Virus record (IMG/VR): IMGVR_UViG_3300044974_000700
Coordinates: 21,554 to 85,553 of that record
Strand: one strand, 5' to 3'
DNA from: a virus
Length of the DNA stretch: 64,000 bases
The position numbers and the translations under genes were made by a program. The notes beneath the pieces are model-generated. The model did not search any database and was not told the origin of the DNA. It was given only the letters and a program-made list of their open reading frames with translations. Below, piece by piece: positions 339 to 26,379 of this stretch. The first letter of the stretch is position 1. The number at the start of each line of letters is the position of its first letter.

Positions 339-376
339 CAAATTTTGCCCGCAAAGACTGTGGGGGCACAAAGCTC

Positions 377-438
377 TTTACGTCAAATTATAAAAATCCC
401 TTAAATTAATTGTAAATGTCAGTGGCACCTGTTATAAT
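377..438 (+). promoter_or_regulatory. promoter cassette P1
   Basis: Upstream bipartite element TTTACG (377-382), 10 bases, then AAAATC (393-398). Core promoter TTGTAA (410-415), 17 bases, TATAAT (433-438). TGTCAGTG (417-424) lies exactly 8 bases before the -10 box. The TGTCAGTG-N8-TATAAT arrangement recurs in P2, P3, P4 and inside the gene at 5420-5641. It drives the GP88 gene, whose RBS is GAAAGGA. Confidence 0.8.
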
Positions 439-2561: not shown

Positions 2562-3032
2562 ATGGAAACAGTAACAAATGATATGTATAACCCACATTCA
2601 TTGGTAACTCTTAAGAAGATTATCAATACAGAAAGCGGAGATGTACAGTTTGAACTATATAAGGTTACAGAACTAGAATCAGTTCTAGATGAAATGACTC
2701 GTCGCAATAATCTTATTTCACAACGTATCGAAGCACAAGAAAAACAAATTGGTCAGATTATAGATAACTTAACTGCACAGGGTTGGTATAACCCTAATTA
2801 TGAGAAGTCAGAAGTTTTGTCAGACCTATGTGATATTCTTGGCCATGAACCAAAGCAAGAAATTCGTATTACTGCAACCGTGCAGGTTGAAGTTGTATAT
2901 GACTGCCCACTTGATGAGGTTGAAGACTTTGACGCAAGATATTTCTTGCAAGATGTACTTACAGTTGATGCATATAATGGAGATGTCATTGTTGAGTCAT
3001 TCGATGTTGAAGATGCGGACGTGAACTGGTAA
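2562..3032 (+). CDS. hypothetical protein, 156 aa
   Basis: Unrecognised family. Residues about 25-65 are predicted to form a coiled coil (ELESVLDEMTRRNNL onward). The C-terminal half is acidic beta-strand-like sequence (VQVEVVYDCPLDEVEDF). The start at 2562 is set by RBS GAAAGGA 7 bases upstream; an upstream in-frame ATG at 2466 precedes the promoter and is rejected. It begins a tight rightward operon running to 4018, overlapping the next gene by one base (TAATG). Confidence 0.7.
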   Translation: METVTNDMYNPHSLVTLKKIINTESGDVQFELYKVTELESVLDEMTRRNNLISQRIEAQEKQIGQIIDNLTAQGWYNPNYEKSEVLSDLCDILGHEPKQEIRITATVQVEVVYDCPLDEVEDFDARYFLQDVLTVDAYNGDVIVESFDVEDADVNW

Positions 3033-3244
3033 TGTATTATCAATTACAGGCACCCACTAGCGCAGCCTGCAAGGCTGCCTATTGGGAGGCAGAGTTTTCA
3101 GGGCTTGACCCATATTGGCTTGAATCTAATGTATTTGAATTAGGAACAGGAAGCATTGAAAAAGTTTCTGCCTTGATTTCCAAATATAATCTTGATATAC
3201 TAGTTGAATCAGATTATCAACCAACTGGTTACACAAGGAGGTAG
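3032..3244 (+). CDS. hypothetical protein, 70 aa
   Basis: Starts within the stop of the preceding gene (TAATG), indicating translational coupling. No recognisable motif. The Ala-rich N-terminus (PTSAACKAAYWEAE) may be helical. Ends at the RBS of the next gene. Confidence 0.6.
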   Translation: MYYQLQAPTSAACKAAYWEAEFSGLDPYWLESNVFELGTGSIEKVSALISKYNLDILVESDYQPTGYTRR

Positions 3245-3245
3245 T

Positions 3246-3410
3246 ATGGATTACAAAGACGGTTTTGAAGACGGAGTTAAGTTTACTCGTGAAGTCATCA
3301 TTGCTAATATTCGTAAATGGGCTGAGGATTCTATTCTTGGAGAAGAAGGAGCAATTATGGATAGCATTGCAGATAAAATCGAATTTGGGACATTAGACAA
3401 TGACCTCTGA
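3246..3410 (+). CDS. hypothetical protein, 54 aa
   Basis: The start ATG at 3246 is chosen because the strong RBS AAGGAGG lies just upstream; a longer frame to 3204 lacks an RBS and overlaps the previous gene. Small acidic helical protein (MDYKDGFEDGVKF). Overlaps the following zinc-knuckle gene by 11 bases. Confidence 0.6.
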   Translation: MDYKDGFEDGVKFTREVIIANIRKWAEDSILGEEGAIMDSIADKIEFGTLDNDL

Positions 3411-3621
3411 GGATCTTACAATAGAATGGATTAAATGTGATTCTTGCTCTGCCCGTGCAGCTTGGGTTGCACGTGGTACTAGTGGTGAGCTTACATTTTG
3501 TGGACACCATTTAAATAAGAATAAGCAGGCCCTTGACAGTTGGGCCTATGAAATTATAGAATTGGGTAAAGAAGAACTACCTAAAAAACAAACTAGACGA
3601 AAGGCGGTACAAAATGGGTGA
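3400..3621 (+). CDS. DUF7455-type Cys/His zinc-knuckle protein
   Basis: 73 residues with CDSCSARAAWVARG near the N-terminus and FCGHHLNK about 16 residues later: the CxxC...CxxH pattern of the short DUF7455 family found in actinobacteria and their phages. Probably binds one zinc; role unknown. Overlaps both neighbours, so it is translated as part of the 2562-4018 operon. Confidence 0.65.
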   Translation: MTSEDLTIEWIKCDSCSARAAWVARGTSGELTFCGHHLNKNKQALDSWAYEIIELGKEELPKKQTRRKAVQNG

Positions 3622-4018
3622 CAGAGCAAACTTTGTATTTGTTCAACCAAGCGGAGAAACCATTGTTTTATACGGACACTGGGCAGGACATGGCATGTTA
3701 GAAAAATTAGGTGAGGCTGTAGCAAAAGCACAGCCACGCTGGACGGACCCTTCATATGCTACACGAATTGCTATCAGTCAAATGATTGGCGACGGATGGG
3801 GCATGGAAACTGGATGGGGCCTGCAGGTCAATGAGATATCTGATAATGAGCACAAGATTCCTGTGATTAATTGGATAGACCAAACAATGTCTCTGCATGA
3901 AGAGGATTCATTCTATAACGAATCTAATAAGGTCCGTGGAATGAAGAACGACGCTATATTTACCATGGACTTGAGAACGTTTGTAGAGAAATACACAGAC
4001 GCCAAGATTTTGGTATAA
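3614..4018 (+). CDS. conserved phage hypothetical, 134 aa
   Basis: Starts MGDRANFVFVQPSGETIVLYGHW (truncated here: MGDRANFVFV), a soluble protein rich in Trp and Gly. I recognise the opening as typical of small phage proteins of unknown function but cannot name a family. Overlaps the upstream gene by 8 bases. Its 3' end contains a TATAAT box (4014-4019) that may start the downstream structured RNA. Confidence 0.65.
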   Translation: MGDRANFVFVQPSGETIVLYGHWAGHGMLEKLGEAVAKAQPRWTDPSYATRIAISQMIGDGWGMETGWGLQVNEISDNEHKIPVINWIDQTMSLHEEDSFYNESNKVRGMKNDAIFTMDLRTFVEKYTDAKILV

Positions 4019-4019
4019 T
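4014..4019 (+). promoter_or_regulatory. -10-like box for candidate small RNA
   Basis: TATAAT overlaps the last codons and stop of the gene ending at 4018. No good -35 hexamer and no TGTCAGTG element is present, so activity is uncertain. Transcription from it would begin around 4026, exactly at the base of the predicted RNA stem. Confidence 0.35.
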
Positions 4020-4025
4020 ATTAAT

Positions 4026-4117
4026 AATGAGGTGCCGCTACTAGCGATTCCGCAAGTGGTTAACTAAAGCAGCGTTTACTTAAATTCCTTTCGTTTGGCT
4101 AGCAGCCTCATGTTAAT
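4026..4117 (+). ncRNA. candidate structured small RNA with an RBS-complementary loop
   Basis: Noncoding DNA with a long-range closing stem: ATGAGG (4027-4032) pairs with CCTCAT (4106-4111), flanked by ATTAA/TTAAT (4020-4024, 4113-4117), and inside by GCTA/TAGC (4037-4040, 4100-4103). Inner hairpins such as GCG-ATTC-CGC are possible. The apparently single-stranded ATTCCTTTCGTT (4084-4095) is the exact reverse complement of the ribosome binding region AACGAAAGGAAT at 2547-2558, and of 11 bases at 4298-4308. It is followed directly by an intrinsic terminator. Either a trans-acting translational regulator or a 3'-UTR element; folding was done by eye. Confidence 0.45.
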
Positions 4118-4150
4118 AGGGCCCCTGGAATCCAGGGGCCCTTCCTTTTG
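4118..4150 (+). terminator. strong intrinsic terminator
   Basis: AGGGCCCCTGGA (4118-4129) pairs perfectly with TCCAGGGGCCCT (4131-4142), followed by TCCTTTT. Ends the 2562-4018 operon and the candidate small RNA. Confidence 0.8.
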
Positions 4151-4179
4151 CCCGTAGTTTGTGAGGGTAGCAAAAGCTT

Positions 4180-4288
4180 GTTACGTTGTCAAGCCAAAAT
4201 CCCCTAAAATTGTGAGGTTTTGATCACAAACCTTACACTACATGTGAGGTTTATCATATAGACATTTGTCAGTGGGTGGATGTATAAT
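4180..4288 (+). promoter_or_regulatory. promoter cassette P4
   Basis: GTTACG (4180-4185), 10 bases, AAAATC (4196-4201); TGTCAGTG (4267-4274), exactly 8 bases, TATAAT (4283-4288). As in P2, about 46 bp of extra DNA separates the two halves and carries a TGTGA...TCACA inverted repeat. Drives the Api92-like gene operon starting at 4314. Confidence 0.75.
4211..4228 (+). promoter_or_regulatory. inverted repeat TGTGA-N8-TCACA
   Basis: Inverted repeat in the extra DNA of P4, at a position comparable to the TGTGA-N6-TCACA site in P2. The 8-base spacer departs from the usual CRP-family spacing. Confidence 0.35.
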
Positions 4289-4313
4289 AATGCCAATAAC
4301 GAAAGGAAATAAT

Positions 4314-5063
4314 ATGCCAAACTGGGTATATAACGGATTAACTATAGAGGGAAATCCACAATTAGTCAATACATTGGTAGCACAATTAAATAAGCCATTT
4401 GTTCAAGTTCATGATTCATGGAACATGGAAAATGGTCAAATGGAAAAAAAGCAAACTACATATCCTAATCCTGTATTTGCATTTCATAATATCTATAATC
4501 ATTTACAAGCAAGTATTACTGAATATGAATATCTTCAGCAACCCGACCATAAATTACCAATTGCAGAACAAATGAAATTTGCAACAAATGATTGGTATTC
4601 ATTTAATGTTCGTGAATGGGGAACAAAATGGGATGTTGCTGTATCTTCAGATAATGAATATCCTGATACATATATTGAAGGACCTACTCCTAATGGAGAG
4701 AATCTAGTTGTATATTATAATTTTAATACTGCTTGGTCTCCACCGTTCCCTGCCCTTGCAAAATTATCTGCACAATATCCAGCATTACTACTTACACTTA
4801 GTTATGAAGAAGAAACAGGTTGGGGTGGTGAATGTGAATTCCTACGTGGTGAAATGATATCTAATTCAGAATATGAAAGCATGTGTCGTGATTGTGAAGC
4901 AACAGATACATTAGATTATTGTGAGAATGACTGTGGCCAAATCTGTTCTAAATGTAATTGGCTTGGGGAGGCAGACCTAGAATGTGTCAAAGAATGTCAG
5001 ACCCATAAGATATACTTGGATTCCGAGCATGTCCCTGATTATAGAATGGAGCAAATCAAATGA
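4314..5063 (+). CDS. Api92-like (DUF1281-type) protein with C-terminal Cys cluster
   Basis: 249 residues opening MPNWVYNGLTIEGNPQ, the signature start of Api92/DUF1281-like proteins, which adopt a ferredoxin-like fold and whose role is unknown. The central region contains FNVREWGTKWD and FNTAWSPPFPAL, also typical. The last 60 residues add a Cys-rich segment (CRDCE, YCENDCGQICSKC, CVKEC) that probably binds zinc. The start is chosen from RBS GAAAGGA at 4301; an ATG at 4266 would lie upstream of the -10 box. First gene of the 4314-6422 operon. Confidence 0.8.
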   Translation: MPNWVYNGLTIEGNPQLVNTLVAQLNKPFVQVHDSWNMENGQMEKKQTTYPNPVFAFHNIYNHLQASITEYEYLQQPDHKLPIAEQMKFATNDWYSFNVREWGTKWDVAVSSDNEYPDTYIEGPTPNGENLVVYYNFNTAWSPPFPALAKLSAQYPALLLTLSYEEETGWGGECEFLRGEMISNSEYESMCRDCEATDTLDYCENDCGQICSKCNWLGEADLECVKECQTHKIYLDSEHVPDYRMEQIK

Positions 5064-5284
5064 GTTTCCTAGAAGAAGCCAACATTAACCAAATGGTTAT
5101 TGATTATGAGATACAAGTAATATCAGAACATCTATTTGATGAATGGATGAATTCTAATTTAGATGAAGGTTCATTTTATGCAGATTATCAATTTGCAGTA
5201 ATGTGTGATTCTAAAGAGATTAAACAAGCATTTAATCAATTCTATAATTTAAAGGAGGATGATGAACATTATGTTGGGTTATAA
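5060..5284 (+). CDS. hypothetical protein, 74 aa
   Basis: ATGA overlap with the preceding gene. Acidic, helix-rich, no recognisable motif. Its 3' end overlaps the next small gene and carries that gene's RBS (AAAGGAGG). Confidence 0.6.
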   Translation: MSFLEEANINQMVIDYEIQVISEHLFDEWMNSNLDEGSFYADYQFAVMCDSKEIKQAFNQFYNLKEDDEHYVGL

Positions 5285-5420
5285 ATTAAAAGATGTAGAA
5301 GAAATGGTTGAAGGTTTATTGAATGTACATGAATCTTTACCTGATTCTAGGAATAAAGAAGAAGTTTGGTTAGCCGCCGACTTTTTAATTGGATTAATGG
5401 AAGAGGGGCATGTTCAATAA
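5271..5420 (+). CDS. small acidic protein, 49 aa
   Basis: Begins MLGYKLKDVEEMVEGLL and ends EEGHVQ. RBS AGGAGG at 5253-5258 is 12 bases before ATG 5271; in-frame ATG 5262 is too close to it but cannot be excluded. TAATG overlap with the next gene supports expression. No family recognised. Confidence 0.6.
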   Translation: MLGYKLKDVEEMVEGLLNVHESLPDSRNKEEVWLAADFLIGLMEEGHVQ

Positions 5421-5641
5421 TGGAATCAGAATACATTCGTAGAACTGGTCAACTGAAAGAATATATAAAGCTCCATATAATTAGTTTGGAACAAGACTTA
5501 GAGGGAATTGCTGAACAAATGGAAATGCTTGACCCTGAATCTAAGGAATGTAAAGAACTAGATTTTGAATATAATCATTGGAGTGGGCAATTGCTTTCTG
5601 CCCGCCACATTTTGTCAGTGGCAGAGGATATACTAGGATGA
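5420..5641 (+). CDS. predicted coiled-coil protein, 73 aa
   Basis: Starts MESEYIRRTGQLKEYIK at the TAATG junction with the previous stop. A long amphipathic helix (SLEQDLEGIAEQMEML) suggests a coiled coil. The last codons contain an internal promoter-like TGTCAGTG-N8-TATACT. An upstream frame to 5366 is rejected because it overlaps a real gene and lacks an RBS. Confidence 0.6.
   Translation: MESEYIRRTGQLKEYIKLHIISLEQDLEGIAEQMEMLDPESKECKELDFEYNHWSGQLLSARHILSVAEDILG
5613..5634 (+). promoter_or_regulatory. internal copy of the TGTCAGTG-N8 promoter motif
   Basis: TGTCAGTG (5613-5620), exactly 8 bases, TATACT (5629-5634), located inside the end of the preceding gene. Predicted transcription start is at or next to the ATGATG of the following gene, which would give a leaderless mRNA. 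The TTTACG module is absent here. Confidence 0.5.
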
Positions 5642-5913
5642 TGTACACAACTGAACTACCAGACAATCTACAGAAACTTGTCGACATGAACATCCCTGGA
5701 ACCGATATCTTGCACGGTGAACTTAAGTGGCTAATGAAAGAGGCCGAAGAGCAACTGGAGTTGGCACAGGAGGCAGAGAACAAGACTGGCGAAGCCATGG
5801 ATTCCATGGACCGCAAATATTGGGAGGGACAGTTAGACGCTCTCTCACATGTATATGCATTAACATACCAATTAGCATTTGCAATAGACGAAAGGACAAA
5901 AGCACGTGGCTGA
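5638..5913 (+). CDS. hypothetical helical protein, 91 aa
   Basis: ATGA overlap with the previous stop; ATG 5638 or 5641 may be used. Similar in design to its upstream neighbour: a Glu-rich helix followed by YWEGQLDALSHVYAL, echoing NHWSGQLLSARHIL there, so the two may be diverged duplicates. No known family. Confidence 0.6.
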   Translation: MMYTTELPDNLQKLVDMNIPGTDILHGELKWLMKEAEEQLELAQEAENKTGEAMDSMDRKYWEGQLDALSHVYALTYQLAFAIDERTKARG

Positions 5914-6256
5914 ATTAGATCTAAATAAACTATATAACGATATGGTTGATATCAATGACAGGATTACCAAACTTCCTGTATTCCCGTCCCTTGGCTGGGT
6001 ATGGACCTTTGACATCTTAAAAGATATCTTTGATAACAATCATGAAGACGGTATGGCTGAAGGTGACATCATTGATGAGGTCGTTCCTACTGCAGTTACC
6101 TTACAACAAATCTTTAATAAGTTCTACGAAGACATCGACAAGTTGGACCTTAACATGGACCAAGGTGGCGAAATGTTGGAGGAGACAATCAGAGACTGGA
6201 TGAGAGACAACGACTTCCTCGTTGCTCTAGACGAAGACGGGTGGTTAGATGACTAG
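5906..6256 (+). CDS. hypothetical acidic protein, 116 aa
   Basis: GTG start at 5906 with RBS GAAAGGA at 5890, overlapping the previous gene by 8 bases. Very acidic (GGEMLEETIRDWMRDND). No recognised domain. Confidence 0.6.
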   Translation: MAELDLNKLYNDMVDINDRITKLPVFPSLGWVWTFDILKDIFDNNHEDGMAEGDIIDEVVPTAVTLQQIFNKFYEDIDKLDLNMDQGGEMLEETIRDWMRDNDFLVALDEDGWLDD

Positions 6257-26165: not shown

Positions 26166-26379
26166 TCTTTACCTTATTCTTTTCATATTCAGCCCAAATT
26201 TCTTCGCCAACTATGTCTTTTGAACATGTTCCTGTAGCGTCACAGACTGGAGGATTGCACTCTGCATTTCCCCAATTTTCTGGATCTTGACAAGGATAAC
26301 GGTAACTACCTTGATACCCACAAGAGGTAATAGTTACTGCCAGCATAACGCTTGCCAATGAGGCTTTTAATTTTCTCAT
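26158..26379 (-). CDS. small lipoprotein, 73 aa
   Basis: Signal MRKLKASLASVMLAVTITSC with lipobox ITSC, then four more Cys (YPCQDPENW, AECNPPVC, GTCSKD). Expected to be lipid-anchored outside the membrane. Candidate superinfection-exclusion or lysis-accessory lipoprotein, inferred. Leaderless-type promoter. Confidence 0.7.
   Translation of the reverse strand: MRKLKASLASVMLAVTITSCGYQGSYRYPCQDPENWGNAECNPPVCDATGTCSKDIVGEEIWAEYEKNKVKNG

Follow-up and report, generated by a model that had tools for sequence, protein, structure and literature searches.

A conserved phage RNA whose loop is complementary to a shared leader motif: a candidate antisense regulator of a gene block

In staphylococcal RNAIII and like bacterial small RNAs (sRNAs), C-rich loops mask the Shine-Dalgarno (SD) sequences of several mRNAs, and in phage T4 the RegA and RegB factors act at the ribosome binding sites of many early phage mRNAs to shut off their translation. 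The closest known phage RNA that we found is the c4 RNA of phages P1 and P7, which, as far as the accessible text of the report goes, is an antisense RNA that blocks a phage mRNA's ribosome binding site through complementary segments, which probably lie in loops (PMC12197685). According to the available sections of a 2011 study, cluster K mycobacteriophages carry a start-associated sequence (SAS), GGGATAGGAGCCC, at the ribosome-binding position of many non-structural genes; its authors asked if it is bound by some RNA or protein, from the host or the phage, and noted that four cluster K phages have one SAS copy in the opposite orientation, with no obvious link to a gene start (PMC3203893). Here we analyse a noncoding RNA encoded in a 64,000-nucleotide (nt) stretch of viral DNA, the window (positions 21554-85553 of the 85,553-base virus record IMGVR_UViG_3300044974_000700; GC content 0.349), and show that its exposed loop complements leader sequences across a block of genes in the same phage. 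An original prediction, made from the letters of the window, had taken the segment 4014-4150 for a candidate small RNA with a loop antisense to the phage's ribosome binding sites. Its coordinates and matches proved correct and, of its interpretation, a conserved and probably discrete noncoding RNA with a loop complementary to the leaders of a gene block found support, whereas mimicry of 16S rRNA as the conserved property and sequestration in cis did not.

The segment is noncoding, as predicted, and lies between the stop codon of the upstream gene (4016-4018) and an intrinsic terminator (4119-4149; hairpin 4119-4141, then TTCCTTTT). The fold of 4020-4145 beats 200/200 dinucleotide shuffles (z −4.9), and the covariance model R1, built from sequences that include the window's own RNA, matches 4024-4114 on the + strand with 80.8 bits (E 1.5e-16). 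The RNA is a three-way junction: in P1, 4027-4032 pairs with 4106-4111; P2 is a hairpin at 4034-4060 (4034-4039 with 4055-4060); the junction J2/3, consensus NUAANUAANGC, covers 4060-4070, its first base lying in P2 and its last GC in P3; and P3 is a hairpin at 4069-4103 (4069-4073 with 4098-4103, A4101 bulged). The antisense loop core CUUUCGUU (4088-4095) is mostly unpaired in the window fold, with unpaired probabilities of 0.78-0.97 in the first part of the loop and 0.19-0.49 at its last bases.

Relatives of the 134-amino-acid gene upstream of the RNA were found in 58 viral loci, and the same RNA follows in 56/56 loci that are not cut off (39 distinct downstream sequences), L039 and L058 ending before the RNA. 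A pattern scan enlarged the sample to at least 83 distinct copies, the J2/3 motif NUAANUAANGC being itself used in collecting them; L126, a pattern match without the fold, was dropped. A MAFFT alignment (A1) was also dropped since it misplaced the loop between types, which made its RNAalifold consensus weak. We used instead our own alignment, anchored by segment on GGTGC, the junction, CTTTCGTT and GCNGCC; invariance of the anchor sites in the 83 copies is therefore by construction, whereas the loop counts from the 56 loci and from the unbiased scans given below are free of that effect. The compensatory changes that the original prediction had proposed to look for are present. Two variable P2 pairs, which take 4 and 5 pair types, G-U among them, are standard in 83/83 copies (37.0 and 41.9 in shuffles), P3 pair 5 in 76/83 (33.7), and P1 pairs 1, 3 and 4, beyond GG/CC, in 77/83, 61/83 and 67/82 (54.9, 37.5 and 34.6). 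One further P1 pair is weak (62/83 versus 56.4), and one outer P1 pair and the inner P3 pairs 6 and 7 have no support in the 83-copy alignment. G-U pairs are frequent in P2, which favours an RNA on the + strand. The predicted stem ATGAGG/CCTCAT is real, being P1, and mostly covaries in relatives, whereas the predicted GCTA/TAGC stem is not conserved, the relatives supporting the separate hairpins P2 and P3 instead. A pairing of UAAGUAAA with UUUACUUA inside type A RNAs was set aside, being by eye absent from the other types.

The segment thus encodes a real, structured, noncoding RNA that is conserved in relatives. Each of 14 virus records searched whole with the model gave one strong match (E 2.1e-11 or better); R1 matches with E 0.2-0.4 in two records and one at window position 26356 (E 0.36) were judged to be chance. 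One match, in Parahaliea mediterranea, came from a scan of genome contigs. Rfam models at gathering scores found only tRNAs in the whole window; without a threshold, the best match in 3980-4330 had E 0.14, far under gathering scores.

The P3 loop is nearly invariant. CUUUCGUU is present in 56/56 protein-anchored loci (39 distinct) and in 54/55 and 52/53 matches of two pattern scans that did not require the loop. The exception of the first scan, L206, is a true RNA with the loop CUUUCGAU; that of the second, L226, is by eye not this RNA. The flanks define three lineages, UUC-CUUUCGUU-U in A, UUA-CUUUCGUU-GG in B and UUC-CUUUCGUU-GAGG in C. In the window, ATTCCTTTCGTT at 4084-4095 is complementary in 12/12 bases to the leader AACGAAAGGAAT of gene 2562-3032 (2547-2558; duplex −16.0 kcal/mol), a 12-mer for which base composition gives an expectation of 0.003 per strand in 64 kb, and in 11/11 bases to the leader AACGAAAGGAA of gene 4314-5063, which has a DUF1281_C match (4298-4308; −16.4 kcal/mol). 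Weaker target leaders on the same + strand are ACGAAAGG at 3597-3604, before gene 3614-4018 directly 5' of the RNA (−16.1 kcal/mol), CGAAAGG at 449-455, before gene 462-1178 with a GP88 match (−17.8 kcal/mol in an extended alignment), and ACGAAAGG at 5888-5895, before a GTG-started open reading frame (ORF) at 5906 (−15.7 kcal/mol). Nine GAAAGG sites precede an ORF on the + strand of the window (one of them intragenic), four being ACGAAAGG and two AACGAAAGG, so that several leaders match the loop but the predicted "most rightward genes" was too generous; six further AACGAAAGG sites lie just 5' of the window in the same record.

Across the surrounding loci with the RNA masked, the loop complement AACGAAAG ranks 1 of 63,242 8-mers, with 369 occurrences, where 168 8-mers of equal composition average 46, in a count in which each 24-mer context enters once and relatives still weigh. 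In ten records of 85-120 kb, 80 copies of AACGAAAGG lie on the same strand as the RNA and 8 on the opposite strand, where 6/8 copies are the loop itself and two lie elsewhere; the reversed AACGAAAGG pattern occurs 11 times. Within a record, nearly all sites lie in a single block of ~6-12 kb with the RNA inside it (this block runs across both ends of one record), and removal of relatives by protein leaves 49, 55 and 32 motif-bearing gene families in lineages A, B and C. A complementary loop present by chance in one genome, which would have undone the original prediction, is not what the 56/56 loci, the rank of the 8-mer and the strand bias describe: the exposed loop is complementary to ribosome binding sites beyond chance, and beyond what the SD needs. 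A leader that pairs with the 16S tail should have A at base −1, and this tail lacks the CGUU, with the middle CG, of the loop. In lineages A, B and C, however, 53, 64 and 80% of the distinct contexts have C at leader base −1, and the leaders contain AACG, which matches the invariant loop CGUU; loop and leader therefore depart alike from 16S logic. Mean duplex energies are −13.8 to −19.3 kcal/mol for the leader with the loop of its own lineage and −9.1 to −9.8 kcal/mol for the leader with the 16S tail, which allows competition with the ribosome, though it does not prove it.

RNA and targets also differ in what lies upstream. An exact TATAAT is found within 86 nt upstream of 50/75 distinct RNAs and in 294/2960 random windows (9.9%), with 22/23 in lineage A, 9/10 in lineage C and 7/8 in the others; in the window, the extended −10-like TGGTATAAT (4011-4019, + strand, read directly) overlaps the stop codon of the upstream gene. 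TGTCAG is found within 75 nt upstream of 239/335 distinct AACGAAAGG sites, compared with 3/75 RNAs and 261/2960 random windows, and TATAAT follows it at a spacing of 10 nt in 135/135 joint matches at target sites. RNA and targets thus seem to depend on distinct promoter classes, an arrangement that would permit them different timing. At a spacing of 10 nt, TGTCAG is not placed like a classical −35 box, and a phage or host activator at the TGTCAG-type promoters is a guess. Window examples of this promoter-like pair, seen in freshwater-type loci, are at 2515-2540 and 4266-4290, and AATGTCAG is another of the commonest 8-mers in the surrounding loci. We left unused a scan of the relatives for terminators, which was too lenient and lacked a control.

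In light of these data, we consider it probable that the RNA acts in trans, by antisense pairing, and represses the tagged gene block by masking the start-associated SD tag. A phage RNA of roughly 120 nt would be transcribed from its own promoter, fold as the three-way junction and present CUUUCGUU in the P3 loop; the short leaders of the block contain AACGAAAG(G), with which this loop would pair. Since the tag overlaps the SD, the tag-loop duplex would keep the 30S subunit off, and translation of the whole block would be shut down together. The structured RNA and its conservation, the loop, the common leader motif with its restriction to one block on the RNA's strand, and the separate promoter class are results of computation; we infer the contact between the two RNAs, the translational repression and a timing late in or after the early phase.

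Such pairing may have left traces in how loops and leaders differ between lineages. Base +6 of the leader is A in 36/49 (A), 22/32 (C) and 18/55 (B) gene families (B versus A, p 3.7e-5; B versus C, p 0.0017; no difference for A versus C, p 0.8), in a contrast that was noticed in the data before it was tested; the lineage B helix should stop at the second G of the SD because its loop has A opposite, whereas the A and C loops can pair on. T, which partners the C loop, stands at base −5 in 12/32 C families versus 6/49 A and 7/55 B families (p 0.013 and 0.014), and C at −4 in lineage B is a trend only (p 0.061). CC at −5,−4 in lineage B was discarded, as 21/264 versus 3/273 with relatives counted became 3/55 versus 2/49 once these were removed. 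A preference for the own-lineage duplex above main effects was obtained in three of the three lineage pairs (one-sided p 0.011, 0.03 and 0.0018), which are all that these contrasts cover. We regard this as moderate evidence for coevolution of loop and leaders, with L206 as the one counterexample.

That the +6 contrast was seen before it was tested, and that three lineages are compared, weighs against antisense control of the block, and so do the following observations. Stricter clustering by leader sequence, which also discards true motif sites, erases most of the −4/−5 differences and leaves +6A at p 0.00024 for B versus A and 0.1 for B versus C. L206, with its loop changed, keeps AACGAAAGG in 3/4 of its CGAAAGG leaders. 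Only 12/34 lineage B RNAs have an exact TATAAT. Phage DSL-LC01 has a homologue of the upstream gene and 22 CGAAAGG sites in a block at 24-43 kb, with no RNA match to R1 or R2, so that the leader motif can exist without this RNA; the leader complement occurs there in 12 places at 2 mismatches and in none better. Finally, the RNA extends to Streptomyces phages. R1 finds two copies in the terminal repeats of phage Elmer (E 7.2e-4) and blastn finds the RNA in 83 Streptomyces phage records; 14 aligned copies (Stanwilliamsviridae) share P1, P2 and the junction, have a covarying P3 and lie behind a TTGACA promoter. All 14 carry an unrelated loop, A[AU]GGUCGG, and not CUUUCGUU. The complement of this loop is unenriched (rank 4,232 and 18,283 of 51,860 8-mers), which means that the ranking does not always return rank 1, and a search of Streptomyces leaders for the complement of their own loop gave nothing recurrent. 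The scaffold thus predates the leader-matching loop or is more widespread, and it must serve some purpose that does not depend on leaders.

Two features of the Streptomyces phages are noted here. Their RNA has a conserved tail, CUUUCA, right behind P1 (for example L196:9022-9100), for which no matching motif was seen in the Streptomyces leaders listed, and which belongs to a copy without an Rfam match up to E 5. Elmer has an annotated transfer-messenger RNA gene (L184:3418-3697) right after its homologue of the gene preceding the window RNA.

That the Streptomyces phages keep the scaffold with another loop is what one would expect if the RNA acted on a host factor or host RNA, as a 16S-like mimic or a decoy for an initiation component, and the loop matched the leaders through a common ribosomal logic. 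UCCUUUC is indeed common to the 16S 3' end and the loops of lineages A and C. Lineage B, however, has ACUUUC at this place, and the loop CG that is invariant is the part which the 16S tail lacks and the leaders match, so that the mimicry named in the original prediction is not a conserved property; we consider an action of this kind unlikely. We give the same low standing to a pairing that is real but positive or protective, in which the RNA would stabilise or deliver the tagged mRNAs, or the mRNAs would be a sponge titrating the RNA from another target. The sequence does not fix the sign of the effect, many leaders could titrate one RNA, and the tag is close behind the target TATAAT and so near the predicted 5' end; the tag nevertheless includes the SD, and pairing is expected to compete with the ribosome.

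Less probable still is a history without any connection between leader motif and loop, in which duplication of a promoter-leader cassette passed the motif on and the loop matches it by coincidence. The motif in DSL-LC01, the repetition of the TGTCAG promoter part of the cassette and the mostly kept leaders of L206 would fit such a history, but an invariant 8-nt loop that complements the most frequent 8-mer of the region, reverse copies nearly confined to that loop, and the lineage interactions would not. A cis element, a 3' untranslated structure that regulates or terminates the upstream transcript with its loop pairing within the same operon mRNA, is the least probable of all, since, although the upstream promoter is often degenerate in lineage B (where the RNA may be a product of the 3' untranslated region) and the window gene just upstream (3614-4018) has the ACGAAAGG leader, the RNA in the other lineages mostly has its own TATAAT, a terminator ends it in the window, and the targets are spread over many genes with separate promoters of another kind.

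Around the RNA, Pfam matches were obtained for four of six neighbouring genes tested (GP88, DUF932, DUF1281_C and a sub-threshold Lsr2), and two, including the 134-amino-acid gene upstream of the RNA, had none. The DUF932 protein is ~50% identical to Streptomyces phage proteins, for example of Karimac, and a megablast of window 3000-6000 against a phage collection gave no near matches. As the relatives are Streptomyces phages, the host of the window phage is probably an actinobacterium. An element of the type GCCCGCA..GAGGGTA..TTTACG recurs at window 346-400, 1190-1230, 2440-2470 and 4150-4195; it precedes the promoters of several rightward genes and is found in relatives too.

Compared with the known systems, the proposed RNA resembles RNAIII-type sRNAs in having a loop seed against the SD and many targets, but those are host-encoded, have another fold and act on targets without a dedicated tag; T4 RegA and RegB likewise control many ribosome binding sites, but are proteins. 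The c4 RNA is alike in the features given above and differs in having, in the part of the report available, one target, ant, where we find a shared tag on a gene block, in another fold and in other phages (PMC12197685). No Pfam match named ant was among the six neighbouring genes, in a survey that included no search aimed at ant. The nearest parallel to the tag is the SAS of cluster K (PMC3203893) and of cluster EF Microbacterium phages (PMC7302621), which, in the accessible portions of these reports, is a repeated block-wide motif at the ribosome-binding position with some conserved bases unpaired with 16S rRNA. Indeed, the leader motif described here is repeated, sits at the ribosome-binding position, is conserved beyond the SD, and keeps to one orientation and one block. 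The sequences differ, being GGGATAGGAGCCC and GGGAAAGGACCCC in those phages, and no RNA partner is proposed in the same portions of the reports; AACGAAAGG, the motif here, does not conform to the cluster K consensus. In the open literature, with subscription papers mostly outside the search, neither this RNA nor an RNA partner of a start-associated sequence was found described.

In cluster K itself, the SAS copy in opposite orientation lies, with one mismatch, within a gene-free gap of Adephagia (L262:33683, record 58682) and Anaya (L263:34871), where a strong hairpin holds it in its 10-nt loop, and in Amelie (L265:12135) the anti-SAS is in the loop with two mismatches and compensating stem changes. 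The other five of six divergent cluster K phages have 7-11 SAS matches, and hairpins there with other loops; the anti-SAS loop is thus present in 3/8 of the phages examined, in a hairpin unrelated to the three-way-junction RNA. The available text of one study places the start of Adephagia late transcription between genes 92 and 93 (PMC11373665), and since this is the gap in question, the late leader could contain the hairpin. Microbacterium phage AnnaSerena, searched from 8000 to the end, has nine SAS (at most 2 mismatches) and no antisense copy at that limit; at 3 mismatches antisense SAS occur in 4 places. In this phage (L271:3322-3345), GTCCTT..AAGGAC could hide the SD of the next gene in a hairpin.

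We propose, tentatively and with less assurance than for the RNA of the window, that several unrelated actinobacterial phage groups turned the loop of a pre-existing RNA into an antisense key to a block-wide start tag. This would have arisen at least twice, in the phages described here and in some cluster K phages, one RNA closing a block, for example at the early-to-late switch. It offers a testable answer to a question that has stood since 2011, namely what the start-associated sequences of actinobacterial phages do and if they have an RNA partner. An antisense RNA that reaches many targets through one dedicated address tag would be an RNA counterpart of protein regulators like T4 RegA. The scaffold is apparently unannotated in the 83 records of cultured Streptomyces phages (among 60 records listed, 56 have no annotation under the RNA, three have an overlapping hypothetical gene and one is an unannotated record), and this part of the proposal is therefore open to laboratory study now.
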